A DNA stretch of 64,000 nt from Jiangella anatolica. GTDB taxonomy: Bacteria > Actinomycetota > Actinomycetes > Jiangellales > Jiangellaceae. Location of the stretch: NCBI RefSeq assembly GCF_003236295.1, contig NZ_POTW01000021.1, positions 1 through 64,000 on the forward strand, written 5' to 3'. Positions 13,946 to 29,653 of the stretch are shown in pieces (position 1 is the first letter of the stretch; every line of letters starts with the position of its first letter). The notes beneath the pieces were generated by a model. That model had not been told where the DNA came from and did no database searches. It saw only the letters and a list, made by a program, of their open reading frames with translations. Made by a program: the position numbers and the translations under genes.

Positions 13946-14019
13946 AGTTGATCTTGGAGTTGTTCGTCCATCTATCGGGCAATTCGGGCGGGATATGCCG
14001 AACGACTCCAAGATCAACT
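13946..14019. repeat. 74-nt hairpin repeat, copy A
   Basis: Terminal arms of 21 nt (AGTTGATCTTGGAGTTGTTCG at the left, its complement with one mismatch at the right) surround a 32-nt centre. The same 74-nt element recurs at 15053-15126 in the opposite orientation; the centres differ at 3 of 32 positions. The right arm contains the stop codon of the DUF559 gene. It resembles REP-like or MITE-like palindromic units. No transposase is in the window. Confidence 0.85.
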
Positions 14020-14955
14020 TCGGCTGGAGCGGCGCGGGCGGGCGATCGCGCGACGGATGCGGTCGCACAGCCGGCCTCGGTGGCTGAGGTCGTCGGCAGT
14101 TACCCGGATCACCTCCCAGCCGTGATCGCGCATGACCTCGTCGCGCGCGATGTCCGAACGCCAGCGCTTCTTGGTGCGATGGACGTCGCCCTCGTACTGG
14201 ATGGCTACCCGGGCGTCCACGTAGGCGAGATCGGGCCGGCCGATCCACCCGCCGTGCTCATCGGCGACGTCGGGATTGATCAACGGCTCGGGCAGGCCGC
14301 CGTGGCCTGTGAGGATCAGGCGCAGCCGGGTCTCCTGAGGAGAGTCGACCCGGGAGCGAACCAGGCGGGCCAGCGACCGCGCCCGCACGATCCGCCGCCG
14401 GCGCCAGGCGACGTCCGCGGCCTCGACCAGCCGCTGGGGCGTCGTCAACCCCTGCCGCACCATCGCGTCACCGGCGATGACCAGGTCGGCGTCGCCGAGC
14501 GTCAGCGAGAGGTCCAGCCAGGTCCGCTCCGGCGTGGTGACCCGCACCCCGCGATGGACGGTCACATCGTCCGCCGCCAGACCCTCATGCGGCTCCAGCC
14601 CGGGCCGCCGACGCGGCACCGTCCCCGGCGGCACGATCACCTGCACCAACGGCGGCGCCGCAACCGGCAGCCCGTACCACACGGCCGCGGTCGCACCGTA
14701 CAACGCGGCGTCGGCCGGCAGCGCCAGCATCCACGCCCGGATTCGCAGCTCATCGTCATCGGGTCGCCGCCTCTCGACGTAGACGCCGCGATGGAGCCGG
14801 CGATACGACCGCCCGCGGAGCCGGTCCTTCGTGACGCCGGCGGCCCGGGCATCGGCGTACCGGAACTCGGCGCCGGCCAGCGCCTCAGGAACCGGCGCCG
14901 GTCGCTGGCCGGGAACACGTCGCTCGGGTCGCATGCCTCCAACGTCGCCGCGCAT
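14014..14955 (-). CDS. DUF559-domain protein (Vsr-like endonuclease fold) with AbiEi-type N-terminal region
   Basis: A 313-residue protein. The C-terminal third carries a DUF559/MTES_1575-type restriction-endonuclease-like core: ETRLRLIL, then GRPDLAYVDARVAIQYEGD (about residues 236-254) with the D and E-x-D positions expected for metal binding, then a strand (HGWEVIRVTADDL). The N-terminal two thirds (FRYADARAAGVTKDRLRGRSYRRLHRGVYVE) resemble the AbiEi-like winged-helix region common in these actinobacterial proteins. Function is not established; DNA binding or nicking is inferred. ATG 14955 was chosen; ATG 14934 is possible. Its stop codon lies inside hairpin repeat A, and repeat B stands upstream of its start. 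Confidence 0.75.
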   Translation of the reverse strand: MRGDVGGMRPERRVPGQRPAPVPEALAGAEFRYADARAAGVTKDRLRGRSYRRLHRGVYVERRRPDDDELRIRAWMLALPADAALYGATAAVWYGLPVAAPPLVQVIVPPGTVPRRRPGLEPHEGLAADDVTVHRGVRVTTPERTWLDLSLTLGDADLVIAGDAMVRQGLTTPQRLVEAADVAWRRRRIVRARSLARLVRSRVDSPQETRLRLILTGHGGLPEPLINPDVADEHGGWIGRPDLAYVDARVAIQYEGDVHRTKKRWRSDIARDEVMRDHGWEVIRVTADDLSHRGRLCDRIRRAIARPRRSSRS

Positions 14956-15052
14956 CGGAGCCGCCACCACGCCCGAACGCCAGATTGTGGACAACGCCGC
15001 CAACCAGTTCCGCCTGTGGGCAACGACCCGGCTCACCCGTTGCGCCCACCGG

Positions 15053-15126
15053 AGTTGATCTTGGAGTTGTTCGCCATATGCCGCCCGAAATGCCCGATAG
15101 ATGGACGAACAACTCCAAGATCGACT
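15053..15126. repeat. 74-nt hairpin repeat, copy B (inverted relative to copy A)
   Basis: The left arm (15053-15073) equals that of copy A, and the right arm (15106-15126) pairs with it at 20 of 21 positions. The reverse complement of its 32-nt centre matches the centre of copy A at 29 positions. Copies A and B therefore form a large inverted repeat around the DUF559 gene, about 1.18 kb from end to end. Confidence 0.85.
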
Positions 15127-15196
15127 TGGTGCAGGCGGGGTGGGACGCGCGGCGTCACCCGAGTGGGCCGCGGGGGACGCTCTAGGCTCTGTGCCC

Positions 15197-16021
15197 ATGA
15201 GCGGCGTGGTGTCGTGGTCGCGGTATCTCACGCCGGACGCCCGGCACCGGCGGCTCGGGCTGGTCTGCCTCAGCGTGGGTGGGATCGCGGGCCGGGTGGC
15301 GAGGCTGCCGTCGCGGACGTTGGACTGCTACGCGGTCGTGTTCCTGTCCCGGGGTGCCGGGACGCTGCGGTGGGGCGGGCGGACGCTGCCCCTGGTCGCG
15401 CCGACGCTGTTCTGGCTGCTCCCCGGCGTCGAGCACGGGTACGGGCCGGACGCCGGCGGCTGGAACGAGTCGTGGGCGCTGTTCGACGGTGCGGCGGCGC
15501 GCACCTACCAGGACCTCGGCTACGTCCCGCGGGACGAGCCGGTGACGCCGGTCGCGGACGCCGACGCGATGGAGGTGGCGTTCGCTGCGCTGGCCCGGGC
15601 CTGCCGTCCCGACGACCCGGCCACCGACGTCGAGGCCGCGGCGGCCATGCACCGGCTGATCCTCGCCGCCCACCGCGCCGCCGTCCCGGAGCCCGGCGCC
15701 GACCCCGTCCTGGCCGCCCTGCTGCGCGACGCCTGCCTGCCGGTCACCGTCGCCGCGCACGCCCGCGGGCTCGGGATGACCGAGGCGGCGCTGCGCGAGG
15801 CGACCCGGCGCGCGGCCGGCTGCAGCCCGAAGGAGTTCCTGCTGCGGGTCCGCCTCACGCGCGCGAAGGAGCTGCTGGCCAGCACCGACCTGCCCGTCGT
15901 CGCCGTCGCGGCCCGCACCGGCTACGACGACCCCGGCTACTTCACCCGTCTCTTCACCCGCCGGGTCGGCCTGCCGCCGAGCCGGTTCCGCGACCAGGAG
16001 CGCCGCGGCCCGCTGCCCTGA
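15197..16021 (+). CDS. AraC-family transcriptional regulator
   Basis: A 274-residue regulator. The N-terminal cupin-like sensing domain (about 10-130) contains GAGTLRWGGRTLPLVAPTLFWLLPGVEHGY, followed by a linker and a C-terminal double helix-turn-helix (about 180-270): TVAAHARGLGMTEAALREA, CSPKEFLLRVRLTRAKELL and the signature AARTGYDDPGYFTRLFTRRVG. ATG 15197 is used because the in-frame extension upstream is encoded by repeat B. The ligand and target genes are unknown; no adjacent enzyme is co-oriented. Confidence 0.87.
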   Translation: MSGVVSWSRYLTPDARHRRLGLVCLSVGGIAGRVARLPSRTLDCYAVVFLSRGAGTLRWGGRTLPLVAPTLFWLLPGVEHGYGPDAGGWNESWALFDGAAARTYQDLGYVPRDEPVTPVADADAMEVAFAALARACRPDDPATDVEAAAAMHRLILAAHRAAVPEPGADPVLAALLRDACLPVTVAAHARGLGMTEAALREATRRAAGCSPKEFLLRVRLTRAKELLASTDLPVVAVAARTGYDDPGYFTRLFTRRVGLPPSRFRDQERRGPLP

Positions 16022-16341: not shown

Positions 16342-16728
16342 TCACCTGGCGGGCGTCGCCTCGCGGGCGGCGAGAATCTCCGGCAGGTGCTGCTCGATCC
16401 AGCCGACCAGGCCGACGACGTGGCCGGCGACCTGCTCGCCTGTCTCCGTCAGCCGGTAGCTCACCTGCGGCGGCGCGGCCGGGATGACGGTGCGCTCGAC
16501 GAACCCGTCGTCGGCGAGGGTGCGCAGCGTCTGCGCGAGCATCTTCTGGCTGACCCCGCCGATGCGGCGGTGCAGTTCGCCGAAGCGCAGCTCCCGCTCC
16601 CCCAGCGCGGCCAGGACGAGCACGCCCCAGCGGCTGGTGACGTGCTCCAGGACGCCCCGCGACGGGCAGTTCTTGTCGAACACGTCACCCGCCAGTGCCT
16701 GCAGCCCGCCGCTGACCTCGACGCTCAC
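16342..16728 (-). CDS. HxlR-family winged-helix regulator
   Basis: A 128-residue HxlR/MarR-like protein with the characteristic N-terminal Cys (KNCPSRGVLEHVTSRWGVLVL), a winged helix (GELHRRIGGVSQKMLAQTLRTLADDGFVER) and the typical YRLTETGEQV strand. In this family the cysteine often senses oxidants, electrophiles or quinones. It is divergent from the NmrA/QorB-like oxidoreductase gene, the usual arrangement in which HxlR represses a quinone or nitro-compound detoxification gene. Confidence 0.9.
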   Translation of the reverse strand: MSVEVSGGLQALAGDVFDKNCPSRGVLEHVTSRWGVLVLAALGERELRFGELHRRIGGVSQKMLAQTLRTLADDGFVERTVIPAAPPQVSYRLTETGEQVAGHVVGLVGWIEQHLPEILAAREATPAR

Positions 16729-16756: not shown

Positions 16757-16827
16757 CGTACTTTCATCTGGTGAGTCTCCAGGTTAACGTCGATTTCGAC
16801 CGAGACAAAGAGAGAACGGAGACCGAC

Positions 16828-17604
16828 ATGATCGTGGTGACCGGCGCAACCGGGCGGTTCGGGCCCGTCGTCGTCGACGACCTGGTCGCACGGGCGGCCG
16901 GCGACGTCGCCGTCGTCGCGCGCGACCCGGAGAAGGCCCGGCGCTTCGCCGAGCGCGGCGTCGAGGTGCGCCAGGCCGACTACGAGGACGCGGCGAGCCT
17001 GGAGCGTGCCTTCGACGGCACCGACCGGCTGCTGTTCGTGTCCGCGTCGGACACGACGCCGGGCGTGCGGGCCCGCCAGCACGCGAACGTCGTCGCCGCG
17101 GCGGCGACGGCGAAGGTGCGGCACGTCGTCTACACCAGCGCGATCACCGCCGAGGACGGGCAGAGCTTCCTCGCCGACCATACGACCACCGAGCACGCGA
17201 TCCGCGACGCCGGGCTGACCCACACGTTCCTGCGCAACACGTTCTACACCGAGGAACTGGTCTCCCCCGACCTGGCGACGGCGGCCGAGGTGGTCGCGCC
17301 GGCGATCGGGCAGCCGCTGGTCACCGCGACGATCGCCGACCTCGCGCTGGCCGCGAGCGCGGTGCTCACCGGCGACGGCCACGAGGGCGCGGTGTACGAG
17401 CTGCGCGGGCCGGCCTGGACGTACCGGCAGCTGGCCGAGGCGCTCGGCGTCCCGTACCGGGAGGTCTCGGACGACGAGTCCGGCATGGCCTTCGTGCTGC
17501 CGCTGCTGCGGCTGCCGCAGTTCGGCACGCCGACGCCCGACCTGGAGCGGCTGCTCGGCCGTCCGGCGACCTCGGTGGAGGAGTTCGTCCGCTCCCTGGC
17601 ATGA
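16828..17604 (+). CDS. NAD(P)H-binding NmrA/QorB-like oxidoreductase
   Basis: A 258-residue atypical short-chain dehydrogenase. The N-terminus TGATGRFGPVVV (about residues 5-16) is the glycine-rich dinucleotide site, and RDPEKARRFAERGVEVRQADYED follows the NmrA/QorB pattern. HVVYTSAI contains the strand-5 serine. Such proteins reduce quinones or act as redox sensors. The assignment as a quinone reductase is supported mainly by the divergent HxlR neighbour. The gene ends 7 bp before the sensor-kinase/ATPase fusion, so read-through into that operon is possible. Confidence 0.85.
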   Translation: MIVVTGATGRFGPVVVDDLVARAAGDVAVVARDPEKARRFAERGVEVRQADYEDAASLERAFDGTDRLLFVSASDTTPGVRARQHANVVAAAATAKVRHVVYTSAITAEDGQSFLADHTTTEHAIRDAGLTHTFLRNTFYTEELVSPDLATAAEVVAPAIGQPLVTATIADLALAASAVLTGDGHEGAVYELRGPAWTYRQLAEALGVPYREVSDDESGMAFVLPLLRLPQFGTPTPDLERLLGRPATSVEEFVRSLA

Positions 17605-17611
17605 TGCGCCG

Positions 17612-20026
17612 ATGGCAAGCCCGGCCGTCCTCGGCGAAGATGGTGGGATGACCGACGGCGACGGCCGCCGCGGCGGCGCCGCGCCAGTGCTCGAGCTGCG
17701 GGGCGTCACCAAGCGCTACGGGCGGCTGCGTGCGCTCGACGGCGTGACGCTGAGCGTGCGCGGCGGCGAGATCGTCGCCGTCGTCGGCGAGAACGGCGCC
17801 GGCAAGTCGACGCTGGTCCGCTGCATCGCCGGCGACACCGACGTCGACGAGGGCCAGGTCGCGGTGGCCGCGGCCGACGGCGCCCGGGCGCCGGTCGCGG
17901 TCGTCTGGCAGGACCTCGGGCTCTGCGACGACCTCGACGTGGTGGCGAACATCTTCCTCGGCCGCGAGCACTCCCGGCTGCTGCTGGCCGAGGGGCGGAT
18001 GGCCGCCGACGCCCGCAGCGCGCTGGAGCGGTTCGGCTCGCAGGTCACCGACGTCCGGGCCCGGGTCGACACGCTGTCGCGCGGCCAGCGCCAGGAGGTC
18101 GCGCTGGCCCGGGCGCTGTCCACCGGCGCGCAGATCCTCGTGCTGGACGAGCCGACGGCGTCGCTGAGCGTGCTGCGCCGGGCCGAGGTCATGCGGGTGC
18201 TGAGCGACCTGCGCGACGCCGGCCGGGCGATCGTGCTGGTCAGCCACGACCTGGACGAGGTCTTCGCGCTGGCCGACCGGATCGTCGTGCTGCGGCACGG
18301 CCGCGTCGTCGCCGGGGTGTCACCGGCGGAGGTGCACTCCGACGACGTCGCGGCGCTGATGTCGGGCATCGAGACCGAGTCCGCGGCGCGCCGTCAGCTC
18401 AACCGGCTCAAGAGCCTGGTCGAGCAGCTCTCGGCCGCCGACCCGGCCGCGTCGCTGCCGCTGGTCGTGTCCGCGACGGCGGCCGCGCTGGACCAGGACA
18501 TGCTCTGCGTGCACTTGCTCGACCGGGCGCCGCGCGGGCCGGTGCTGCGCCGCACGGCCGCCATCGGCGTGCCGGCGGTGCTGGCCGACGACATCGCCGT
18601 CCTACCGGTCGGCACGGCGGGCGGACCGGCCGGTACGGCGGCGGCGCTGGGCCAGCTCGTCGTCATGGACGATCTCGGCGACGAGGCGTCCTGGACCGGC
18701 TACCTGGAGCAGGCCTCCGCCGCCGGGGTGCGCAGCGCCTGGTCCGCGCCGATCGCCGGCGCGGCCGGCGTGCTGGGCACCATCACCGGGTTCAGCACAT
18801 CCGCCGGCCGCCTCGACGCGGACCGGCGCGAGCTGGTCTCGCTGTACGCCGGCCACGCGGCCAGCGCGATCGAGCGGGAGCGGCTGATCGAGGAGGTCAG
18901 CCGGCGCAACGAGATCCTGGAGTCGCTGCGGGCGATGCTGGAGACGCTGGCCGGCCCGGACCGCGTCGACGGCGGCCTGTCCGCCGCGCTGCTGGCACTG
19001 TGCCGCGGCCTCGGCGCCCGCGCGGCCGGCATGCTGCTCACCGACGTCACGGGACCGCGCTGGGTGCACCTGGACCTCGATGAAGAGGACGGCGCCGACC
19101 TGCGGGAGCTGGCCGAGACCGCGCCCGCCGGCATCGACCGGCCGCGGCGCATCGGCGACGGCCTGGCCATCGCCGGGCTGCCGATCCCCGGCGGCACCGG
19201 GCTCCTGCTGGCCCGCTGGGACGATCCGGCCGAGCCCGGCCGCGACGCCGTCGAGCTGCTCGACGACGCGCGCCGCTCGCTCGCCCTCGCGCTGGAGCGG
19301 GAGGAGCTGGAGCGGGCCCGGCGGGAGGCGGCCGCCGCCCGGCGCTCACAGCAGCTGCAGCGCGAGGTGCTGGAGCAGATCAGCCACGAGCTGCGCACGC
19401 CGCTGACCGCGATCCACGGCTACGCCTCCACGCTGCAGCAGCGCGACCTCGTCTGGGACCCCGGCTCGATCGACCGGTTCCTGGCCGCGATCACGACCGA
19501 GTCCGCGCGGATGGAGCGCCTGGTCGGCGACCTGCTCGACTCGTCGGCGATCGAGTCCGGGCTGCTGCGGCTGCGGCCGGACTGGACCGACGTGCGGCTG
19601 GTGCTGGAGGCGGCGCGCAGCTGCGTGCCGCACCCGGAGCGGGTCAAGGTCAGCGTCGCCGCGGAGCTGCCGCCGATCTGGGCCGACCACGACCGGCTGG
19701 AGCAGGTGTTCGTCAACCTGCTGGAGAACGCGGTCCGGCACGGCGGCGACGGCGGCACGGTGCGGGTCACCGCCGCCGCGGCCGGCGCCGCCGTCGAGGT
19801 GCTGGTCAGCGACGACGGCCCGGGCATCGCGCCGGACGTGGCCGAGCGGATCTTCCAGCCGCGGGTGCGCGGCGAGGGCAGCACCGGCGCCGGGCTGGGC
19901 CTCGCGATCGTCCGCGGCATCGCCGAGGCGCACGGCGGGCGGTGCGAGCTGGTCGCCGGCCCCGAGGCGACGTTCCGGGTGACGCTCCCGGTCGAGCCGG
20001 TCGAGCACGAGGAGAGCGATGGCTGA
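17612..20026 (+). CDS. fusion of a sugar ABC-importer ATPase with two GAF-like regions and a cytosolic histidine kinase
   Basis: An 804-residue protein. Residues 25-255 are a CUT2-type ABC ATPase: Walker A GENGAGKST (59-67), Q-loop Q100, signature LSRGQ (155-159, Arg replacing Gly), Walker B ILVLDE (175-180) and switch H212. Residues about 265-425 form a GAF-like domain and 440-560 a second, degenerate one. A helix leads to the dimerisation box S591-H592-ELRTP with phospho-acceptor H592, then N-box NLLENAVRH, G1 DDGPGIAPD and G2 GLGLAI. No membrane helix is present. All catalytic motifs look intact. ATG 17612 is used; ATG 17648 is possible. The frame overlaps the response-regulator gene by 8 bp. 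No other ATPase exists for the downstream binding protein and permease, so this must energise them if the system works. Confidence 0.9.
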   Translation: MASPAVLGEDGGMTDGDGRRGGAAPVLELRGVTKRYGRLRALDGVTLSVRGGEIVAVVGENGAGKSTLVRCIAGDTDVDEGQVAVAAADGARAPVAVVWQDLGLCDDLDVVANIFLGREHSRLLLAEGRMAADARSALERFGSQVTDVRARVDTLSRGQRQEVALARALSTGAQILVLDEPTASLSVLRRAEVMRVLSDLRDAGRAIVLVSHDLDEVFALADRIVVLRHGRVVAGVSPAEVHSDDVAALMSGIETESAARRQLNRLKSLVEQLSAADPAASLPLVVSATAAALDQDMLCVHLLDRAPRGPVLRRTAAIGVPAVLADDIAVLPVGTAGGPAGTAAALGQLVVMDDLGDEASWTGYLEQASAAGVRSAWSAPIAGAAGVLGTITGFSTSAGRLDADRRELVSLYAGHAASAIERERLIEEVSRRNEILESLRAMLETLAGPDRVDGGLSAALLALCRGLGARAAGMLLTDVTGPRWVHLDLDEEDGADLRELAETAPAGIDRPRRIGDGLAIAGLPIPGGTGLLLARWDDPAEPGRDAVELLDDARRSLALALEREELERARREAAAARRSQQLQREVLEQISHELRTPLTAIHGYASTLQQRDLVWDPGSIDRFLAAITTESARMERLVGDLLDSSAIESGLLRLRPDWTDVRLVLEAARSCVPHPERVKVSVAAELPPIWADHDRLEQVFVNLLENAVRHGGDGGTVRVTAAAAGAAVEVLVSDDGPGIAPDVAERIFQPRVRGEGSTGAGLGLAIVRGIAEAHGGRCELVAGPEATFRVTLPVEPVEHEESDG

Positions 20027-20714
20027 GGCGCCCGGCGTCCTCATCGTCGAGGACGACCGCACGATCGTCGACCTGCTGCGGTCGAACCTCACCGCCCGCG
20101 GCTACCGGGTCGTCGTGTCGACGGACGGCTCGGACGTGCTCGGGCTGCTCGACGACGCCGCGCCCGACGTCGTCCTGCTGGACCTGATGCTGCCCGGCCG
20201 CGACGGCTTCGACCTGTGCTGGGCGATCCGCGACCGCTCCGACGTCGGCATCATCGTGCTGTCGGCGCGGCGCGGCGAGACCGACAAGGTGCGAGCGCTG
20301 AACCTGGGCGCCGACGACTACCTCACCAAGCCGTTCGGCATCGAGGAGCTGCTGGCCCGGATCCACGCGATGCTGCGCCGGGCCCGCCCGGCCGAGCCGC
20401 GGCCGGCGGCGCCGCACGTCCAGGCCGGCGACGTCCGCATCGACTTCGACGCCCAGCTGGTGACGAAGGGCGGCAAGCGGGTCCACCTCACCCGCACCGA
20501 GTACGCGCTGCTGCGCGAGCTGGCGATGAACCCCGGCCGGCTGCTGTCGCACGCCGAGCTGCTGGAACGGGTGTGGGGCCCCGGCTACGAGACGCAGACG
20601 GAGTACACCCGGGTGTACGTCGGCCGGCTGCGGGCCAAGCTGGAGAGCCCGGACGGCGCGGAGCTGATCGTCACCGAGCCGCGGGCCGGCTACCGGTTCA
20701 CGACGGACGGCTGA
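20019..20714 (+). CDS. OmpR/KdpE-like response regulator
   Basis: A 231-residue regulator with a receiver domain (residues 5-120: acidic pair E11-D12-D13, phospho-acceptor D55 in LLDLMLPG, lysine in YLTKPFG near 104) and a winged-helix DNA-binding domain (about 135-228: LTRTEYALLRELAMNPG, TRVYVGRLRAKLE, and RAGYRF at the end). The start ATG lies inside the 3' end of the ATPase-kinase fusion gene (8-bp overlap), so it is the evident partner of that kinase. It probably controls this operon and perhaps the neighbouring sugar-import genes. Its stop overlaps the start of the binding-protein gene by one base. Confidence 0.93.
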   Translation: MAEAPGVLIVEDDRTIVDLLRSNLTARGYRVVVSTDGSDVLGLLDDAAPDVVLLDLMLPGRDGFDLCWAIRDRSDVGIIVLSARRGETDKVRALNLGADDYLTKPFGIEELLARIHAMLRRARPAEPRPAAPHVQAGDVRIDFDAQLVTKGGKRVHLTRTEYALLRELAMNPGRLLSHAELLERVWGPGYETQTEYTRVYVGRLRAKLESPDGAELIVTEPRAGYRFTTDG

Positions 20715-21793
20715 TGCGCCGCCTCCCCGCTCTGCTCGCGGTGTCCGCCCTGGCGCTGGGCCTGGCGGCCTGCGGCGCGCCGGCCGGTGACGACGGCGAG
20801 CTGCAGATCGCCCTGCTGCTGCCGGAGAACAAGACCGCCCGCTACGAGTCGCACGACCGCCCCGCCTTCGTCGACCGGGTCCACGAGATCTGCGCCGAGT
20901 GCGAGACGCTGGTCAGCAACGCCGACCAGGACGCGGCCCACCAGCAGGCCCAGGCCGAGGCCGCGATCACCAACGGCGCCGACGTGCTCGTGCTCGACCC
21001 GGTCGACTCCCGGTCCGCGGCGGTGATCGTGCGGCAGGCGCAGGCCGCCGGCGTCCCCGTCGTCAGCTACGACCGGATGGTGCTCGACGTCCCGGTCGAC
21101 TTCCACGTGACGTTCGACAACGAGCAGGTCGGCGCGTTGCAGGCGGAGGTACTGCTGGCCGCCGTCGGCGACACCGACGGCGACCTGGTGGTGCTGAACG
21201 GCTCGCCCACCGACGACAACTCGGCGCTGTTCCGCCGCGGCGCGCACAGCGTCCTCGACGGCGCCGGCGTCGCCGTCGGCGCCGAGGTGGACGTGCCGGA
21301 CTGGTCGCCGGACCAGGCGCAGGAGGCGATGGAGCGGGCCCTGACGACGCTTGGCCGGGACCGCGTCGCCGGGGTCTACGCGGCCAACGACGGCATGGCC
21401 GGCGGCGCGATCGCCGCGATGAAGGCGGCCGGGCTGGACCCGCTGCCGCCGGTGACCGGGCAGGACGCCGAGCTGGCCGCGATCCGCCGGATCCTCACCG
21501 GCGAGCAGTACATGACGGTGTACAAGGCGGTCCGCACGCAGGCGGAGCGGGCCGCCGACGTCGCCGTGAGCCTGGCCCGCACCGGCGAGCCGCCCGACGG
21601 CCTGCGCAACAGCTGGGTCGACAACGGCCATGACCGGATCCCGGCGCTGATGCTGGACCCGGTCGCCGTCACCCGCGACACGATCGCCGAGACCGTCGTC
21701 GCCGACGGGTTCTGGTCGGCCGGCGAGATCTGCGAGGGGCTGGCGGCCGAGTGTGCCGCGGCCGGCGTCGTCGTTGACGGAGCGGCGCCGTGA
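20714..21793 (+). CDS. xylose-type sugar ABC importer, lipoprotein substrate-binding protein
   Basis: A 359-residue periplasmic-binding-protein fold lipoprotein. The signal peptide ends in a lipobox (LGLAAC, Cys20). Family segments include IALLLPENKTARYE, VLVLDPVDS, PVVSYDRMV, the FDNE motif, VYAANDGMAGG and VTGQDAELAAIRRILTGEQYMTVYK. It most resembles XylF/ChvE-type aldopentose/monosaccharide binders and has exactly the length of its paralogue at 24528. The gene sits between the response-regulator and permease genes with overlapping stop/start codons, so it is made together with the kinase. It may present sugar both for transport and for sensing; the sugar is not identifiable here. Confidence 0.9.
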   Translation: MRRLPALLAVSALALGLAACGAPAGDDGELQIALLLPENKTARYESHDRPAFVDRVHEICAECETLVSNADQDAAHQQAQAEAAITNGADVLVLDPVDSRSAAVIVRQAQAAGVPVVSYDRMVLDVPVDFHVTFDNEQVGALQAEVLLAAVGDTDGDLVVLNGSPTDDNSALFRRGAHSVLDGAGVAVGAEVDVPDWSPDQAQEAMERALTTLGRDRVAGVYAANDGMAGGAIAAMKAAGLDPLPPVTGQDAELAAIRRILTGEQYMTVYKAVRTQAERAADVAVSLARTGEPPDGLRNSWVDNGHDRIPALMLDPVAVTRDTIAETVVADGFWSAGEICEGLAAECAAAGVVVDGAAP

Positions 21794-22941
21794 GCGGCTC
21801 GGTCTCGCCGGCCCGGCTCGGCCGGTGGGCGCCGCCTGCCGCGCTCGTCGTCATCTGGCTGGTGATGAGCCTGAGCAACCCGCGCTTCCTCTCCGCGGTG
21901 AACCTCACGAACCTGATGCTGCAGATCGTCGCGGTCGGCGCGGTCGCGGTGGCGGTCGTCCTGGTGCTGCTGATCGGCGAGATCGACCTGTCCGTGGGCG
22001 CGGTGTCCGGCCTCGGCGCGGCCGTCACCGCGGTGCTCAGCGTGAAGGCGGACTGGCCGGCCGTGCTGGCGATCCTGGCCGGGCTGGCCACCGGCGCGCT
22101 GGTCGGGCTGCTGCACGCCGCCATGGTGACGCGCGTCGGCGTGCCGTCGTTCGTCGTGACCCTGGCCGGGCTGCTGACGTGGCAGGGCGCGCTGCTGCTG
22201 GTGCTCGGCGACACCGGCAGCGTCAACATCGACGACCCGCAGCTGGTGGCGATCGCGGGGACGTTCCTGTCGCCGGCGCTGGGCTGGCTGCTCGCCGCGC
22301 TGGTGACCGGCGGCGCCGTGCTGGCCATCGTCGGCTACCTGCGCGGCGTGCGGCCGCGCCCGGCCCGGCGGGTCTGGCCGTGGGTCGTGGCGGCGATCGG
22401 CGCGCCGGTGGCGGTCGCGGTGTTCAACGCCGACCGCGGCGTCCCGTTGGCGGTCGTGGTGTTCCTCCTGCTCCTGGCCGGCGGCGACCTCATGGTCCGG
22501 CGCACGCGGCTGGGCCGGCACGCGGTCGCGACGGGGAGCAACGCGTCGGGGGCGCGGAGGGCGGGCATCAAGGTGGACCGGATCCGGCTGGCGGTGTTCA
22601 TGCTGGCCTCGGTGCTGGCCGTCACCGGCGGCATCCTCGCCGCGTCCCGGCTGCTCGCCGTCAACCAGTCGTCGGGCAGCACCGACCTGATGCTGACGGC
22701 GGTGGCGGCGGCCGCGATCGGCGGGACCAGCCTGTTCGGCGGCCGCGGCACGGTGTGGTCCGCGCTGCTGGGCGCGCTCGTCGTCGGTTCGCTGGCCAAC
22801 GGGCTGGACCTGCTCGGCGCGTCGTCGCCGATCCGGCTGATCGCGACCGGCCTGGTCCTCGCCCTCGCCGTCGGGCTGGACACGCTGGCGCACCGGGCCG
22901 AGCTGACACCCTTCCGGGAGCACTCACGACCCGGGCCGTAA
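21790..22941 (+). CDS. xylose-type sugar ABC importer permease
   Basis: A 383-residue CUT2 (BPD_transp_2/XylH-like) permease with about 10-12 membrane helices. The GEIDLSVG motif (about residues 56-63) and the C-terminal GGRGTVWSALLGALVVG segment, which contacts the ATPase, are conserved. GTG 21790 overlaps the stop of the binding-protein gene (GTGA). It forms the channel that would dock the ABC domain of the ATPase-kinase fusion, placing that soluble kinase at the membrane. A 17-bp-arm hairpin follows 12 bp after the stop. Confidence 0.92.
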   Translation: MSGSVSPARLGRWAPPAALVVIWLVMSLSNPRFLSAVNLTNLMLQIVAVGAVAVAVVLVLLIGEIDLSVGAVSGLGAAVTAVLSVKADWPAVLAILAGLATGALVGLLHAAMVTRVGVPSFVVTLAGLLTWQGALLLVLGDTGSVNIDDPQLVAIAGTFLSPALGWLLAALVTGGAVLAIVGYLRGVRPRPARRVWPWVVAAIGAPVAVAVFNADRGVPLAVVVFLLLLAGGDLMVRRTRLGRHAVATGSNASGARRAGIKVDRIRLAVFMLASVLAVTGGILAASRLLAVNQSSGSTDLMLTAVAAAAIGGTSLFGGRGTVWSALLGALVVGSLANGLDLLGASSPIRLIATGLVLALAVGLDTLAHRAELTPFREHSRPGP

Positions 22942-22952
22942 CTCGCCCCGTT

Positions 22953-23008
22953 CCATGATCATCAACCTTTTGCGTCGCCAGGGCAGCACAGAAGGTTGAT
23001 GATCATGG
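22953..23008. terminator. large hairpin downstream of the kinase-linked importer operon
   Basis: Perfect 17-bp arms (22953-22969 and 22992-23008, CCATGATCATCAACCTT and complement) enclose a 22-nt loop. They start 12 bp after the permease stop. The arms are AT-richer than their surroundings and the core ATGATCAT is itself palindromic. It may act as a transcription terminator or be a dispersed palindromic repeat; no second copy is seen in this window. Confidence 0.55.
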
Positions 23009-23214: not shown

Positions 23215-24390
23215 GTGCGTGACGCCACCGGGCCGGGGTCGCTGTCGGCGCTGCGGCTGGCCAACCGGGAGCGCCTCCTCCTGGCGCTGGCCGGCGGCGA
23301 CGCGGTCAGCCAGGCCGAGCTGGCCCGGCTGACCGGGCTGGCCCCGGCGACCGTCTCCGGGCTGGTGCGCGACCTCGTCGAGGCCGGCGAGCTGCTGGTC
23401 CGCCAGGGTGTGGCGAACGGACGGCGCAGCCGCCTGGTCGAGCGGGCGCCGGCCCGGCAGCGCTACGGCATCGGCATCGACCTGGGCCGCACCCATGTGA
23501 AGGTCGTCGCCGGCGGCGATCCCGGCGAGGTGCTGGCCGCCGCGGCCGGCGACCTACCGGGCGGGCCGCGCCCGGACACGCTGCTCGACGTCGTCGGCGA
23601 GCTGGCGGCGGCGGTGCGGAAGGAGGCGGGACTCGCGGCGGACCAGGTCGACGGCGTCGCGGTCGGCGTCCCCGCGCCGGTCGACCCCGCGACGGGCGCC
23701 GTCACGGAGACGGCGATCCTGCCCGCGCTCGTCGGCTTCCCGCTGCGCGACGAGGTGTCCGCGCTGCTCGGGCGGCCCGTGGTGGTCGAGAACGACGCGA
23801 ACCTCGGCGCGCTCGCGCTGTCGCGCCGGGCCGCCGGCGGCGCGCCGGGCGCGGTCGTGTTCGTCAAGGTCGGCTCCGGCATCGGCGCGGGTGTCGCGGT
23901 CGACGGCCGGCTGCTGCGCGGCGACGCGGGCAGCGCCGGCGAGATCGGCCACCTCGCGCTGGACCCGAGCCTGTCCGTGGTGTGCCGGTGCGGCCGCCGC
24001 GGCTGCCTGGAGACCGTCGGCTCGGCGGAGTCGGTCCGGACGGCGCTGAGCTCGGCGCTGCAGCGCGAGCTCGGCCTGGCCGAGGTCCTGGCGCTGATCG
24101 GCGACGGCCACCCGGTCGCCGTCCACGTCCTGGAGGACGCCGGCGAACTGCTCGGCCGCGCCCTGGGCTGGCTGGCGATGATCGTCAACCCGGCCGAGAT
24201 CGCCCTCGGCGGACCGCTGATCGCCGCCGGCGACGCCTGGCTGCGCCCGGTGCGCCAGGGCTTCCGCCGCGCCGTCCTCCCCGGCGTCGCGGCCCGGACC
24301 CGGGTCACGATCTCGCCGCTGGGCGAGGACACCGAGGCCGTCGGCGCACTCGTGGCGAGCCTGGCCGTTCCCGTCCAATCGGGTCATTAA
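23215..24390 (+). CDS. ROK-family transcriptional repressor (XylR/NagC type)
   Basis: A 391-residue protein with an N-terminal winged helix (SQAELARLTGLAPATVSGLVRDLVEAGEL, about residues 31-59) joined to a sugar-kinase-like ROK domain. The domain has a phosphate-binding DLGRTHVKV, GEIGHL, and the zinc site C-x-C-G-x2-G-C (CRCGRRGC). A catalytic-type Asp is present in VVENDANLGA, as in ROK kinases. It is expected to repress the adjacent sugar importer (24528-27748) until a sugar binds. GTG 23215 was selected by frame and domain start. It lies between the two importers and could influence both. Confidence 0.88.
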   Translation: MRDATGPGSLSALRLANRERLLLALAGGDAVSQAELARLTGLAPATVSGLVRDLVEAGELLVRQGVANGRRSRLVERAPARQRYGIGIDLGRTHVKVVAGGDPGEVLAAAAGDLPGGPRPDTLLDVVGELAAAVRKEAGLAADQVDGVAVGVPAPVDPATGAVTETAILPALVGFPLRDEVSALLGRPVVVENDANLGALALSRRAAGGAPGAVVFVKVGSGIGAGVAVDGRLLRGDAGSAGEIGHLALDPSLSVVCRCGRRGCLETVGSAESVRTALSSALQRELGLAEVLALIGDGHPVAVHVLEDAGELLGRALGWLAMIVNPAEIALGGPLIAAGDAWLRPVRQGFRRAVLPGVAARTRVTISPLGEDTEAVGALVASLAVPVQSGH

Positions 24391-24527
24391 CGTCGAAATA
24401 CGAACGCATAAACAAGATGTAAACGCGTAATGTATTTGAGCCTTGACGGCAATCCTGCGGAGTTCCAGACTCGTCCCAGCCGACCCGATCGGCAGGGGCC
24501 GGCCCGAACCCAAAGGAGGGTTTCCAC
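24391..24527 (+). promoter_or_regulatory. control region of the second sugar importer
   Basis: A 137-bp gap with an unusually AT-rich segment (24388-24440) containing imperfect inverted elements (AATACGAACGCAT and ACGCGTAATGTATT) that could bind the ROK protein. TTGACG (24443-24448) is a -35 candidate, but the hexamer 17 bp downstream (CAGACT) is weak. The Shine-Dalgarno sequence AAAGGAGGG (24512-24520) before GTG 24528 is one of the strongest in the window, as expected for an abundant binding protein. Confidence 0.45.
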
Positions 24528-25607
24528 GTGCACCAGCCCATTCGACGGGCTGCCGTCTTCGCAGTCCTCAGCCTGGCCGCCGTCGTGGCGACCGCATGTG
24601 GCGCCAACGAAGACAGCGGCGGTGGCGGGGACGACGAGACCGCGAGCGGCGGCGGCACCATCGCCCTGCTGCTGCCCGAGTCGGCCACCGCCCGCTACGA
24701 AGCCTTCGACAAGCCGCTGTTCGAGGCCAAGATCAGCGAACTCTGCGCCGACTGCGAGGTCGTCTACTTCAACGCCGACCAGGACGAGGCCCAGCAGGCC
24801 GAGCAGGTCGACTCCGCGATCTCGCAGAACGTCGACGTGATGGTGCTGGACCCGGTCAACGGCCAGTCCGCTGCGGCCCTGGTGGCCGACGCGCAGGCCG
24901 CCGACATCCCGGTCATCGCCTACGACCGCTTCATCGAGGGTGCGGACTACTACACCTCGTTCGACAACGAGCGCGTCGGCGAGCTGCAGGGCCAAGCGCT
25001 GGTCGACGCGGTCGGCGGCGCCGGCGACATCCTCATGCTCAACGGCTCGCCCGACGACCCGAACGCGGCCATGTTCAAGTCCGGCGCGCACGGCATCATC
25101 GACGCCAGCGAGCTGACCGTCGTCGGTGAGTACGACAACCCGGACTGGAGCCCCGACAACGCCCAGTCCTGGACGACGGACCAGCTCAACACCATCGACC
25201 CGGCCTCGCTGGCCGGCGTCTACGCCGCCAACGACGGCCAGGCCGGCGGCGTCATCGCCGCGCTGACCGGCGCCGGCATCGCGGCCGACGCGCTGCCGCC
25301 GGTCACCGGGCAGGACGCCGAGCTGGCCGCGATCCAGCGCATCGTGGCCGGTGAGCAGTACATGACGATCTACAAGCCGATCAAGGGCGAGGCCGAGGGC
25401 GCCGCCGAGATGGCCATCTCGATCGTCAACGGGGAGGAGGTCGCCGGCACCACCGACTTCCAGGGCGTGCCGTCGCTGATCCTCGACCCGATCGTCGTCA
25501 CCGTCGACAACATCGCCGACACGGTCGTGGCCGACGAGTTCTGGAGCGTCGAGGACATCTGCACCGACGACTACGCGGACGCCTGCACGGCCGCGGGTCT
25601 GAGCTGA
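24528..25607 (+). CDS. xylose-type sugar ABC importer, lipoprotein substrate-binding protein (second system)
   Basis: A 359-residue lipoprotein with a lipobox (VATAC) and the same fold as the protein encoded at 20714. Shared blocks include LLLPES/ENxTARYE, FDNE, NGSPxDxN, VYAANDGxAGG and VTGQDAELAAI. It is more acidic after the lipobox (Gly/Asp/Glu linker). A strong ribosome binding site precedes GTG 24528. A 32-nt hairpin 15 bp after its stop separates it from the ATPase gene and could keep its mRNA more abundant than the rest of the operon. Ligand: probably a pentose or similar monosaccharide. Confidence 0.93.
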   Translation: MHQPIRRAAVFAVLSLAAVVATACGANEDSGGGGDDETASGGGTIALLLPESATARYEAFDKPLFEAKISELCADCEVVYFNADQDEAQQAEQVDSAISQNVDVMVLDPVNGQSAAALVADAQAADIPVIAYDRFIEGADYYTSFDNERVGELQGQALVDAVGGAGDILMLNGSPDDPNAAMFKSGAHGIIDASELTVVGEYDNPDWSPDNAQSWTTDQLNTIDPASLAGVYAANDGQAGGVIAALTGAGIAADALPPVTGQDAELAAIQRIVAGEQYMTIYKPIKGEAEGAAEMAISIVNGEEVAGTTDFQGVPSLILDPIVVTVDNIADTVVADEFWSVEDICTDDYADACTAAGLS

Positions 25608-25622
25608 TCCGACGACAGGACG

Positions 25623-25654
25623 AGGGTGGCGCCGGCCGCGGCCGGTGCCACCCT
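25623..25654 (+). terminator. intra-operon hairpin between binding-protein and ATPase genes
   Basis: A 15-bp stem (25623-25637 with 25640-25654) has a single G:T pair and only two bases between the arms, so at DNA level it is a near-perfect 32-bp palindrome. Hairpins at this place in sugar-importer operons commonly stabilise the binding-protein message or cause partial termination, giving excess binding protein. That role is inferred from position. Confidence 0.55.
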
Positions 25655-25676
25655 TGACCGTGAGGAGATGGTGCCG

Positions 25677-26498
25677 ATGAGCGTCGCCACACACGAAGGC
25701 GGTTCCGCCGCCGCCACGACACAGCCGGTCCTGGAGCTCACCGGGATCGGCAAGCACTTCGGCGCCGTGCAGGCGCTGGCCGGCGTCGACTTCGGGGTCC
25801 ACCCCGGCGAGGTGGTCGCCCTCGTCGGCGACAACGGCGCGGGCAAGTCGACCCTGGTCAAGATCATGTCCGGCGTGTACCAGGCCGACTCCGGCTCGAT
25901 GCGGGTCGACGGCCGCGAGGTGCACGTCCACAGCCCGAGCGCGGCGCAGGCGCTGGGCATCGCGACGGTCTTCCAGGACCTCGCGCTCTGCGACAACCTC
26001 GACGTCGTCGCGAACCTGTTCCTGGGCAGCGAGCTCGGCGCGAAGACGTGGATGGACGAGGTCGCCATGGAGAAGGAGTCCTGGCGGCTGCTGCGCGAGC
26101 TGGGCGCGAAGATCCCGACGGTGCGCATCCCGGTCGCGAGCCTCTCCGGCGGCCAGCGGCAGACCGTCGCGATCGCCCGCAGCCTGGTCGGCAACCCGAA
26201 GGTCGTCATGCTGGACGAGCCGACCGCCGCCCTGGGCGTCGCGCAGACCGCCGAGGTGCTCAACCTCGTCGAGCGGCTGCGTGAGCAGCGCCTCGGCGTG
26301 ATCCTGGTCAGCCACAACATGGCCGACGTGCAGGCCGTCGCCGACCGCATCGTGGTGCTGCGGCTGGGCCGCAACGAGGCCGAGTTCAACGCCGACGACG
26401 TCACGACCGAGCAGCTCGTCGCGGCCATCACCGGCGCGTCGGACAACGTCGTGGCCGAACGCAATGCCCGCCGCGAGGCGTCAGGAGGGCCCGCATGA
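25677..26498 (+). CDS. sugar ABC importer ATPase (XylG-like, single domain)
   Basis: A 273-residue ATPase with Walker A GDNGAGKST, Q-loop FQDLALCDNLDVVANLFLG, signature LSGGQ, Walker B VVMLDEP and switch His in SHNM. It is the conventional counterpart of the ABC part of the fusion encoded at 17612, and the two share the distinctive QDLxLCDxLDVVANxFLG segment. ATG 25677, with GAGGAG 9 bases upstream, is preferred to ATG 25668, which touches that site. It has one ABC domain, unlike the duplicated RbsA type. The stop overlaps the permease start. Confidence 0.93.
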   Translation: MSVATHEGGSAAATTQPVLELTGIGKHFGAVQALAGVDFGVHPGEVVALVGDNGAGKSTLVKIMSGVYQADSGSMRVDGREVHVHSPSAAQALGIATVFQDLALCDNLDVVANLFLGSELGAKTWMDEVAMEKESWRLLRELGAKIPTVRIPVASLSGGQRQTVAIARSLVGNPKVVMLDEPTAALGVAQTAEVLNLVERLREQRLGVILVSHNMADVQAVADRIVVLRLGRNEAEFNADDVTTEQLVAAITGASDNVVAERNARREASGGPA

Positions 26499-27748
26499 GC
26501 AGGACCCAGGTCGACGAGACCGCCGCCCGGTCCGACCTGATCGACGAACGCCTGGCCCAGGACACCGGGCTGCGGGGCGCGCTGGACGCGTTCCGGCGCC
26601 GGGTCCGCGACGGCGACCTCGGCCTGCTGCCGGTGGTCGTCGGGCTGTTCGTGATCGGCCTGGTGTTCTACCTCCAGGACGTCACGTACCTGTCGTCGAG
26701 CAACCTGGTCAACATCACGCTGAACGCGGTGCCGTACGGCATCATCGCGGTCGGCATCGTGCTGGTGCTGCTGCTCGGCGAGATCGACCTTTCGGTCGGC
26801 TCGATCAGCGGCCTGTCGGCGTCGATCACCGCGGTGCTGGTGGTGCAGCAGGACCAGCCGCTGGTCCTGGGGCTGCTGGCCGGCGCCGGGACGGGCGCCG
26901 CCATCGGCATCCTGTACGGGCTGATCTTCACCAAGATCGGCGTGCCGAGCTTCGTCATCACGCTGGCCGGCCTGCTCGGCTTCGTCGGCCTGCAGTACGT
27001 CGTGCTCGGCGACACCGGCACCATCAACCTGCCGCGCTCGTCGGCGCTGGCGCAGTTCGCCCGCGAGGACTTCCTCAGCCCGGCGGTCTCCTACGCCCTC
27101 GTGGCGGCGGTCGCGGTGGGGTACGCGCTGGTGAGCATCGCCGGGATCCGGCGGCGGACGGCGGCCGGGCTGCCGGCGCAGTCGGTGACGCTGGTGCTGG
27201 TCAAGGCCGCGGTGCTGGTGGCCGGCCTCGGCTTCCTCACCTACTACCTGAACATCGACCGCGGCTGGGGCTTCGCCGTCGTGTTCTTCGTCGGGCTGGT
27301 CGTGCTGATGGACCTGGTGCTGCGCAAGACCACCTGGGGCCGGCACCTGTACGCCGTCGGCGGCAACGTCGAGGCGGCCCGCCGCTCCGGCATCAACGTC
27401 AACCTGATCTACATCTCGGCGTTCTCGCTGACCGGCCTGCTGGCCGCGACCGGCGGCCTGATGTTCCTCGCCCGGCTGACGTCGGTGTCGCAGGCCAGCG
27501 GCTCCAACGACGTCAACCTGACGGCGATCGCGGCGGCCGTCATCGGCGGCGTGAGCCTGTTCGGCGGACGCGGGTCGGCGTACTCGGCGCTGCTGGGCGT
27601 GCTGGTGCTGACGGCGATCAACAGCGGCCTCAACCGCATCGGCGTCGACTCGTCGGTCCGCTACATCGTCACCGGCGCGGTGCTGTTGCTCGCGGTGTCG
27701 ATCGACGCGATCGCCCGGCGCGCCCGCGCCAGCAGCGGGCGAGGTTGA
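26495..27748 (+). CDS. sugar ABC importer permease (XylH-like, second system)
   Basis: A 417-residue CUT2 permease with an N-terminal cytosolic extension of about 45 residues and some 10-12 helices. GEIDLSVGSISGL and FGGRGSAYSALLGVLVL match the corresponding segments of the permease at 21790, showing that the two systems are paralogous. Its ATG overlaps the ATPase stop by 4 bp. It is the last gene of the ROK-controlled operon, with a 15-bp-arm terminator 2 bp after its stop. Confidence 0.93.
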   Translation: MSRTQVDETAARSDLIDERLAQDTGLRGALDAFRRRVRDGDLGLLPVVVGLFVIGLVFYLQDVTYLSSSNLVNITLNAVPYGIIAVGIVLVLLLGEIDLSVGSISGLSASITAVLVVQQDQPLVLGLLAGAGTGAAIGILYGLIFTKIGVPSFVITLAGLLGFVGLQYVVLGDTGTINLPRSSALAQFAREDFLSPAVSYALVAAVAVGYALVSIAGIRRRTAAGLPAQSVTLVLVKAAVLVAGLGFLTYYLNIDRGWGFAVVFFVGLVVLMDLVLRKTTWGRHLYAVGGNVEAARRSGINVNLIYISAFSLTGLLAATGGLMFLARLTSVSQASGSNDVNLTAIAAAVIGGVSLFGGRGSAYSALLGVLVLTAINSGLNRIGVDSSVRYIVTGAVLLLAVSIDAIARRARASSGRG

Positions 27749-28165: not shown

Positions 28166-29653
28166 GTGACCGAGCTCTTCGACGTCATCGTTGTCGGCGC
28201 GGGCGCGACCGGCGCGCCGCTCGCGGCCCGGCTCAGCGAGCGCCCGGACCGGCGGGTGCTGCTGCTGGAGGCCGGACCGGACGTCGCGCCGGCGGAGCTG
28301 CTGGACCCGTACACGCTGCCCGCGGCGGCGCCCGGCCACCCGCTGGCCTGGGCGTTCCCGGCCCGGCTCACGCCGGACGCGACGGCGATGGTGCCGCGCG
28401 GGCGGGTCGTGGGCGGGTCGACGGCGGTGAACGGCGGCTACTTCGTCCGCGGCGCGCCGGCCGACTTCGACCGGTGGGCGGCGCTGGGCAACCCGCTGTG
28501 GTCGTGGGACGAGGTGCGCCCGTTCTTCGCCGCCCTGGAGGACGACGGCGACTACGGCGACCGGCCCGGGCACGGGCGCGGCGGGCCGGTCCCCGTCCGG
28601 CGCGACGCCGCGCCGCACCCGGTGACCGATGCGTTCTACGCGGCCTGCGCCGAGCTCGGGTTCCCCGCGCAGCCGGACGCGAACGACGGCGGGCCGCCCG
28701 GCTACGGGCCGGTCCCGCTGACGGTCGCCGGCGGCCGCAGGCACAGCACCGCGGCCACGTACCTGACGCCGGCGGTGCGGGCGCGGCCGAACCTGACGGT
28801 GCGCGGCGACGCGGTCGTGCGGCGCGTGCTGTTCGCGGGCACGCGGGCGACCGGTGTCGTCGTCTCGTCCGGTGGGCGCCTGACGGAGGTGCGAGCCGGC
28901 GAGGTCATCCTGGCCGCCGGCGCGGTGGCGTCGCCGCAGCTGCTGATGGTGTCCGGCGTCGGCCCGGCGGCCCACCTGACGGCGCTCGGGGTGCCGGTGG
29001 TCGTGGACGCGCCCGGCGTCGGCCGCGGCACCAGCGACCACCCGGAGATCACCGTCGTCTACCGGCCGGCCGGCGCCGCGCTGGAACGGACGGCCGCGCT
29101 GCCGCTGCAGGGCCGGCTGGCGTTCACCGCGCCCGGGTCGCCGTACCCGGGCGATCTGGAGATCCTGGCATGGACGCGGCCGCTCGGCGCCGTCGTCCCG
29201 GGCGCCGGCGACGACCTGGCGCTGCGGGTCGCGCTGCAGCAGGAGACCAGCCGCGGCGCCGTCGAGCTGGTCTCGGCCGACCCGGCGGTGCCGCCGCGGA
29301 TCTCGCAGAACTTCCTCGCCACTCCCGACGACCGGGCCCGGCTGCGGCACGGCGTCGGGGTGGCGGTCGAGCTGCTCGCGACGACGGCGTTCCGGCCGCT
29401 GGTCGCGGCGCACTCCGCGCCGCCGGACGACGACGACTGGCTGCGCCGGCACGTCGGCACGGCGATCCACCTCAGCGGCGGCTGCGCGATGGGCCCGGAC
29501 GGCGTCGTCGACCAGCACGGCCGCGTGCACGGCGTCACCGGCCTGCGGGTCGCGGACACGTCGATCTTCCCGGCGGTGCCGTCGTGCGGGCCGGCCGCGA
29601 CCGCCGTCATGGCCGGGGAGCGGCTGGCGGCGCTCATCTCGACAGAAGGCTAA
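28166..29653 (+). CDS. GMC-family FAD-dependent oxidoreductase (MftG-like)
   Basis: A 495-residue flavoprotein. The FAD site VIVVGAGATGAPLAARL and LLEAGPD lies in the first 45 residues, PRGRVVGGSTAVNGGYFVRG near residue 75-95 is the GMC signature, and the active-site His is in HLSGGCAMG (about 435-443). The end, PSCGPAATAVMAGERLA, has Gly-Pro where alcohol oxidases carry Asn/His and resembles mycofactocin-linked MftG proteins. No mycofactocin genes are in the window. It probably oxidises an alcohol or feeds electrons from one. GTG 28166 follows the VOC stop by 3 bp. Confidence 0.87.
   Translation: MTELFDVIVVGAGATGAPLAARLSERPDRRVLLLEAGPDVAPAELLDPYTLPAAAPGHPLAWAFPARLTPDATAMVPRGRVVGGSTAVNGGYFVRGAPADFDRWAALGNPLWSWDEVRPFFAALEDDGDYGDRPGHGRGGPVPVRRDAAPHPVTDAFYAACAELGFPAQPDANDGGPPGYGPVPLTVAGGRRHSTAATYLTPAVRARPNLTVRGDAVVRRVLFAGTRATGVVVSSGGRLTEVRAGEVILAAGAVASPQLLMVSGVGPAAHLTALGVPVVVDAPGVGRGTSDHPEITVVYRPAGAALERTAALPLQGRLAFTAPGSPYPGDLEILAWTRPLGAVVPGAGDDLALRVALQQETSRGAVELVSADPAVPPRISQNFLATPDDRARLRHGVGVAVELLATTAFRPLVAAHSAPPDDDDWLRRHVGTAIHLSGGCAMGPDGVVDQHGRVHGVTGLRVADTSIFPAVPSCGPAATAVMAGERLAALISTEG

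Follow-up and report, generated by a model that had tools for sequence, protein, structure and literature searches.

A histidine kinase fused to an importer-type ATPase domain in Jiangella and other Actinomycetota: motor of a sugar importer or part of a receptor?

Introduction

When the ATPase of a sugar importer is joined covalently to a histidine kinase, does it remain the motor of that importer or does it serve a receptor? The question is raised by a locus in a 64,000-nucleotide stretch of the Jiangella anatolica genome (assembly GCF_003236295.1, contig NZ_POTW01000021.1, positions 1 to 64,000 of the forward strand; hereafter, the window). Here, a single gene encodes an ABC ATPase domain followed by two GAF-type domains and a histidine kinase core, in an operon with genes for an OmpR-type response regulator, a sugar-binding protein (SBP; SBP1 in this operon) and a CUT2-type permease (PERM1). 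A preliminary description of the window, made from the sequence alone, took the fused domain to be the only ATPase of this importer and proposed that transport turnover or sugar occupancy directly controls the kinase.

How importers report on their own state is understood in few cases, and usually the report passes through loosely bound partners. In the present case, the kinase that would make the report shares one chain with an ATPase that seems capable of docking on the permease; the stoichiometry is thereby fixed, and whether closing of the ABC domain drives the kinase becomes directly testable. The reading that we favour, and to which we give about even chances, is that of a sugar-responsive two-component system with an importer-derived receptor that controls sugar-importer genes; docking, signalling and target are all read from conservation, co-change and motif matches.

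Results

The fusion is real and conserved. A search with the GAF region recovered it from 9 of the 12 genomes of the genus and 12 of the 22 of the family, as well as from scattered other Actinomycetota: 4 of the 396 genomes in an even sample of the phylum (the source genome counted), 10/395 genomes of the class of G101 and 4/66 of the class of G183. Partial matches (9 of the 19 matching genomes in the class of G101 and 1 of 5 in that of G183) were not counted as fusions, and at three such loci that were inspected (L087-L089) no ABC domain is joined to the GAF region. This region is 88-92% identical in the eight other genomes of the genus that carry the fusion. A scan of 84,980 species with two peptide patterns, the sole source for the distribution outside Actinomycetota, gave 15 loci, all within this phylum: Jiangella, Phytoactinopolyspora, one Nitriliruptorales metagenome-assembled genome (MAG), and Acidimicrobiia or unplaced actinobacterial MAGs. 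An assembly error can be ruled out, given that the fusion is found in 12 family genomes, of which G002, G007 and G010 each consist of a single contig, and in other families.

Altogether, 31 distinct fusion loci were obtained (contigs duplicated under different genome handles, L038-L046, L049 and L050, being counted once), of which 29 are complete enough to classify; L050/L080 and L052 stop within the GAF region and enter no class count. An SBP and a permease neighbour the fusion in all 29. In class I (n = 14), the operon consists of the fusion, regulator, SBP and permease and lacks a solo ATPase; it comprises nine Jiangella loci (the window included), three from Phytoactinopolyspora, G279 and the Nitriliruptorales MAG. 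Next to the class I operon of L033 lies a further importer, divergently oriented and equipped with a solo ATPase. In class II (n = 15), the genes next to the fusion and regulator encode a complete importer that includes a solo ATPase, mostly in the downstream order SBP, solo ATPase, permease; the exceptions are L047 and L051, with the importer on the opposite strand, and L083, which is reordered (permease-like, ATPase, SBP, permease). The claim that the fused domain is the only ATPase of the importer therefore holds for the class I operons but not for the larger class II (15/29 loci), in which there is no need for the fused domain to act as motor. Likewise, no second ATPase is encoded in the window's operon, but that none serves PERM1 is a presumption, given that a complete paralogous importer (SBP2-ABC2-PERM2) starts 1.6 kb downstream of PERM1. 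The two classes amount to a natural experiment, in which the same sensor occurs with and without a separate motor, and to a record of how a part of a pump may turn into a part of a receptor.

A tree of 65 ABC domains places the 31 fused ones in a single clade (99/97), next to a clade (98/86) that holds the solo ATPases from these operons plus one extra row. The fused and solo clades unite at 97/75, to the exclusion of six further ATPases from the window genome. Because fused and cognate solo ATPases are neighbours in this tree, the fused domain is most simply viewed as a duplicate of the importer's own ATPase that was fused once. For the fused domain of the window, the nearest relative in its own genome is ABC2 (43%). 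In the permease and SBP trees, which took in 10 of the 14 class I loci, the class I proteins form one clade each (100/99 and 96/87), and their nearest relatives are the Jiangella PERM2 (join 93/98) and SBP2 (100/100), respectively.

Comparison of the fused domain with the solo ATPase of the same locus (14 of the 15 class II pairs, L083 being left out) shows that residues 100-120 are the most similar of 199 windows along the domain (0.67, with a mean of 0.43). They lie within the stretch 97-120 that we take, from MalK-type importers, to be the coupling groove. When fused domains are compared with unrelated ATPases of the genome, residues 97-117 score 0.43 and rank 38. Given that residues 100-120 are the best conserved between the pair, the fused domain appears to have kept what the solo ATPase uses on the permease. 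In class I, both sides of this putative interface differ from those of the complete importers. The EAA glutamate is absent from all 14 class I permeases (Ser in 12, Asp in L076 and Arg in L035) and present in all 15 principal class II permeases and all ten permeases of second systems; GSNASGARRAGI and its variants replace GGNxEAARRAGI, presumably the EAA motif. In turn, all 14 class I fused domains have G103 and D107, at which the solo ATPases have Ala (25/25) and Asn (24/25). Because the loss of the glutamate and the altered docking face co-occur (14/14 each), these data suggest that the partner docked by the class I permease is the fused domain rather than the solo ATPase nearby. By the same token, lending of ABC2 to PERM1 seems less likely, since PERM1 and the fused domain differ at the interface while PERM2 keeps the glutamate and ABC2 the Ala and Asn. 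A lysine that, on our assumption, faces the EAA glutamate in MalK is kept by 25/25 solo ATPases; position 70, a conserved lysine, varies among R, K, Q and D in the fused domains of class II. The docking of the fused domain on the permease, as originally proposed, would fit both the face that it shares with solo ATPases and its co-change with the coupling motif in class I.

Turning to catalysis, the Walker A Lys and the Walker B Asp and Glu are present in all 14 class I fused domains, and the Q-loop Gln and switch His in 13. The remaining domain, that of L076 from the Nitriliruptorales MAG, has Gly for the Gln and Arg for the His, with intact kinase boxes. Furthermore, the third position of the signature is Arg in all 14 (LSRGQ/E or GRGQ) as opposed to Gly in 25/25 solo ATPases. 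On the kinase side, the phospho-accepting His, both N-box Asn and the G1 Asp are kept in 29/29 loci. The ratio of nonsynonymous to synonymous substitution rates in the ABC part of the fusion is 0.14-0.36 in seven pairs, a range indicative of purifying selection on this part. Compared with the solo ATPase, the fused domain has roughly double the evolutionary rate, the median ratio being 1.90 in 66 pairs (12 of the 15 class II loci) and 1.22 in six close pairs; six of the nine Jiangella loci were also included. Relative to the permease, no tighter constraint on the class I fused domain was found (median ratios 0.97, 1.02 and 1.23 in three class I sets versus 1.29 in class II), so that a tightening in class I, considered as proof of a motor role, was discarded. 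As a general rule, the notion of the fused domain as sole motor is not supported, considering the solo ATPase in 15/29 loci and the loss of the Gln and His in L076, and the faster evolution of the fused domain weakens it further. Because of the L076 substitutions, the class I signature Arg and the lack of rate tightening, this evidence leans to a receptor, although transport may persist.

The putative target of the regulator is marked by a direct repeat, GTTCAC-N5-GTTCAC with an 11-bp period, that lies upstream of the class II importer genes. A model built from eight sites in seven class II loci was applied to eight held-out class II loci: in seven, its top match falls in the gap that follows the regulator gene (by a narrow margin in L081 and L086), and L051, whose contig ends there, has none. 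In the window, the top match (21.0 bits, the next being 12.1; 0 of 400 simulated windows reach as high) stands before SBP2 of the second importer, as do the top matches in the other eight Jiangella loci and L033; L121 (G017), in which the importer with the ROK-family regulator gene and the fusion are on separate contigs, also has a box before that importer. The whole 7.0 Mb genome holds one match at no more than three mismatches. In two Phytoactinopolyspora loci, the top boxes are paired, 32 bp apart (L032:3050-3100 and L034:2686-2736), before a CUT1 operon (SBP_bac_1/SBP_bac_8, with BPD_transp_1 in L032) that converges on the class I operon. Twin boxes are spaced by 31 bp in 10/15 class II loci and by 32 bp in L079, L032 and L034, as located with a model that had two of its 19-base sites wrong in the first base. 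None of the three window matches above 9 bits lies before the class I fusion gene itself, and in all but a few of the class I loci measured, the gene for the regulator overlaps that for SBP1 and no box separates the two. The recognition helices are near-identical between the classes (ETQTEYTRVYV and ETETEYTRVYV types), with L086 diverging. The regulator would thus act on direct repeats at importer promoters, a reading of the motif that is well supported in class II and confounded in the window (see Discussion). The proposed flux-sensing motor fares less clearly here: a predicted box at the promoter of another importer fits a receptor as well or better.

The domain content of the fusion and the genes of the window are listed in Table 1. 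Pfam identifies ABC_tran (42-183), GAF_2 (284-421), HisKA and HATPase_c in the fusion, Response_reg and Trans_reg_C in the regulator, Peripla_BP_4 in SBP1 and BPD_transp_2 in PERM1. Most structural statements of the preliminary description are borne out: the four genes form an operon with overlapping stop and start codons, the Walker A, Walker B and switch motifs of the ATPase are intact, as are the kinase boxes (H, N, G1 and G2), and the kinase has no membrane helix (top 19-residue hydropathy 1.65, compared with 2.99 for the permease). The combination of HisKA and HATPase_c carrying these boxes with an adjacent regulator that has a receiver with a phospho-acceptor Asp and Trans_reg_C is that of an OmpR-type two-component system. 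The second GAF domain has no match in the Pfam scan of the fusion; it is backed by an AlphaFold model (mean predicted local distance difference test score 76.7, predicted template modelling score 0.37, a value at which domain placement is unreliable, so that the model was used for domain content only), in which an alpha/beta unit at 453-543 lies between two long helices, and by Foldseek, the two best matches of which are full-length bacteriophytochromes, with what we take to be a GAF-PHY-HK layout. The second ATG may be the true start of the fusion, since conservation among the Jiangella proteins sets in at that point.

A BPD_transp_2 permease, a Peripla_BP_4 binding protein and an ABC ATPase are encoded together, as in CUT2-type importers; of the EAA motif with glutamate that belongs to this type, PERM1 lacks the glutamate and PERM2 has it. 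Family models for the substrate score below their cut-offs (SBP1 against XylF, 239.6 bits, cut-off 389.55; the permease against GguB, 178.2, cut-off 450; SBP1 also matches ChvE, under its cut-off), and the transported sugar is therefore narrowed no further than a monosaccharide, perhaps a pentose.

Table 1. Positions of the features in the window
Feature	Positions	Strand	Remark
ABC-GAF-GAF-HisKA-HATPase fusion gene	17612..20026	+	804 amino acids; start may be 17648
ABC ATPase domain, residues 24-252	17681..18367	+	Walker A 59-67, signature LSRGQ 155-159, Walker B 175-182, H212
Q-loop/permease-docking face, residues 97-120	17900..17971	+	class I marks G103, D107
First GAF domain, residues 278-420	18443..18871	+	
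Second, GAF-like domain, residues 453-543	18968..19240	+	no Pfam match
Kinase core	19358..19996	+	HisKA 583-650 with H592, HATPase_c 692-795
OmpR-type response regulator gene	20019..20714	+	
SBP1, lipoprotein sugar-binding protein	20714..21793	+	XylF/ChvE-like, under curated cut-offs
PERM1, CUT2-type permease	21790..22941	+	BPD_transp_2; GguB-like, under cut-off
PERM1 coupling motif GSNASGARRAGI	22534..22569	+	no EAA glutamate (elsewhere GGNxEAARRAGI)
ROK-family regulator gene	23215..24390	+	
Predicted response-regulator box, GTTTA-N6-GTTTA direct repeat	24407..24425	-	motif model
SBP2 of second, complete importer	24528..25607	+	
ABC2, solo ATPase of second importer	25626..26498	+	2.7 kb downstream of class I operon
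PERM2, permease of second importer	26495..27748	+	EAA glutamate kept

The surroundings of the operon hold several further features. Upstream of the fusion, a gene for an HxlR-type regulator (16342-16728, minus strand) is divergent from one for an NmrA-like NAD(P)-binding protein (16819-17604, plus strand). Farther upstream, two 85-nt stretches, 13946-14030 and 15042-15126, are inverted copies of each other (89%) at a distance of about 1 kb. Each is in itself a hairpin with 21-nt arms, and together they flank a minus-strand open reading frame (14014-15231), so that a small mobile element is conceivable. Between PERM1 and the ROK gene lies a near-perfect inverted repeat (22953-23008; 27-nt arms, 85% complementary, 2 nt apart), the outer 17 bases of which are absent from the other fetched loci, except those that are copies of the source genome itself. 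A GMC oxidoreductase gene (28166-29653) directly follows the second importer and possibly encodes a sugar or alcohol oxidase linked to it.

Discussion

The results translate into a model of an importer-derived receptor. Under this model, and in agreement with the trees, the ABC domain of the sensor would descend from the duplicated ATPase of a CUT2 importer, joined once to a tandem-GAF histidine kinase. Sugar would bind SBP1, which, as expected from its family, would dock on PERM1 and change it. Docked on PERM1 by the usual ATPase/permease groove, as conservation and co-change suggest, the dimer of fused ABC domains would open and close with ATP; the helices at 403-446 and 544-608 of the structural model could carry this movement through the GAF pair to H592, and sugar delivery together with ABC opening and closing would set the kinase/phosphatase balance via the GAF helices. 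The regulator, expected from the intact motifs to be phosphorylated by the kinase, would bind the tandem direct repeats and control importer genes. The permease of class II probably serves the motor ATPase and the kinase-bearing one alike. In class I, SBP1, PERM1 and the fusion would form a separate receptor-like complex, with no shared ATPase and perhaps still transporting, and the regulated importer would be another, namely SBP2-ABC2-PERM2 in Jiangella and the CUT1 importer in two Phytoactinopolyspora. A bolder version, which we regard as tentative, holds that the importer has turned into a transmembrane receptor of twofold SBP1, PERM1 and ABC-kinase, with phosphate on the regulator as its main product and class II as an intermediate in which the permease is time-shared by motor and kinase ATPases.

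Several observations weigh against the model of an importer-derived receptor. The class I co-change is one change on one branch, seen in many relatives; the Asp of L076 retains the charge of the EAA glutamate; the signature helix, too, is well kept between fused and solo ATPases (0.62, rank 8); and class I does not come out as a single clade in the ABC tree, where L035 falls with L052. The kinases of five class II loci (L037, L083, L084, L085 and L086) are off the G1/G2 consensus. As for the target, the window box is single and reversed relative to those of class II, and it stands beside the ROK gene, which occurs in 11/22 family genomes, all 11 with the fusion. Because the ROK gene adjoins the box and always co-occurs with the fusion, the box could be a ROK operator. 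Moreover, no box was found in L035 and L076 or before the SBP of the importers L120, L122 and L124, and G021, which has neither fusion nor ROK, holds a 3-mismatch match.

Alternatively, the fused ABC dimer might be the sole motor of the SBP1-PERM1 importer, with transport turnover itself setting kinase activity. The near-complete set of catalytic residues in class I, the purifying selection on the ABC part, the operon without a solo ATPase and the joint change of permease and fused domain are all compatible with such a motor. We nevertheless consider it unlikely, because the class II majority has the fused domain beside a dedicated motor, L076 has lost the Gln and His, all 14 class I domains carry Arg where the 25 solo ATPases carry Gly, the class I domain is no tighter than that of class II relative to the permease, and the box stands at another importer.

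The remaining explanations separate the fused domain from the power supply of the permease or from the permease altogether. Some CUT1 importers share one ATPase, and PERM1 could similarly be powered in trans by the nearby ABC2 or another shared ATPase, leaving the fused protein a separate sensor; consistent with this, the class I genomes G017, G018, G020 and G279 hold solo relatives (56-63%) in SBP-ABC-permease operons. We deem this the least probable explanation, because the EAA glutamate missing from PERM1 is found in 25/25 permeases that have a solo ATPase encoded alongside, because the lysine presumed to face it is kept in all 25 of these ATPases, and because G424, a 64% complete assembly, shows only the fused domain at E <= 1e-45. 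The ABC domain could also act off the permease, as a cytosolic ATP or energy sensor or through a fusion that secures mere co-expression. Such a role would accommodate the faster evolution of the domain and the variable residue 70 in class II, but seems quite improbable in view of the preferentially kept docking face, the SBP and permease neighbours in 29/29 complete loci and the class I co-change.

Among known systems, the closest in architecture is Ks-Amt5 of Kuenenia stuttgartiensis, in which a transporter is joined to a histidine kinase and the transporter module is the sensor, reported to bind ammonium but not to translocate it (PMC5764959). Like the window fusion, Ks-Amt5 has its transporter part and kinase in one chain; it fuses the membrane transporter itself, whereas the window fuses the soluble ATPase subunit and leaves the membrane part a separate protein. 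In E. coli PstSCAB-PhoU-PhoR/PhoB, conformations of the importer, altered via PstB, are proposed to set the histidine kinase (PMC5775613). This system likewise has an OmpR-type regulator, but its components are separate proteins, with PhoU between them and no ABC-kinase fusion. BceAB-S unites an ABC transporter and a histidine kinase in one complex with mutual control (PMC10314905). The Bce module resembles our system in the pairing of an ABC transporter with a kinase and differs in its exporter-like peptide-resistance transporter and separate membrane kinase. In place of an FtsX/MacB-like BceB permease and a membrane kinase, the window encodes a BPD_transp_2 permease and a soluble fused kinase. 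Bce modules are also not known to have a binding protein or GAF domains. In MalK-MalT, an importer ATPase reports the transport state to a regulator, as may be the case here, but neither a kinase nor a fusion is known there. RbsABC, XylFGH and GguAB-ChvE are CUT2 importers with homologous SBP, ATPase and permease; their ATPases follow 500-residue two-domain models, whereas those of the present loci are single-domain, one of them fused to a kinase. A search for a solved homologue of PERM2 on which to place the coupling helix gave no match. Among the titles and abstract openings listed by searches of an open-access library, none describes a protein that combines the ATPase subunit of an importer with a kinase, in agreement with the earlier statement that no characterised importer is known in which motor and kinase are covalently joined. 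Joining a transporter to a kinase has a precedent in Ks-Amt5; what sets the present loci apart is that the partner fused to the kinase is the ATPase subunit of an importer.

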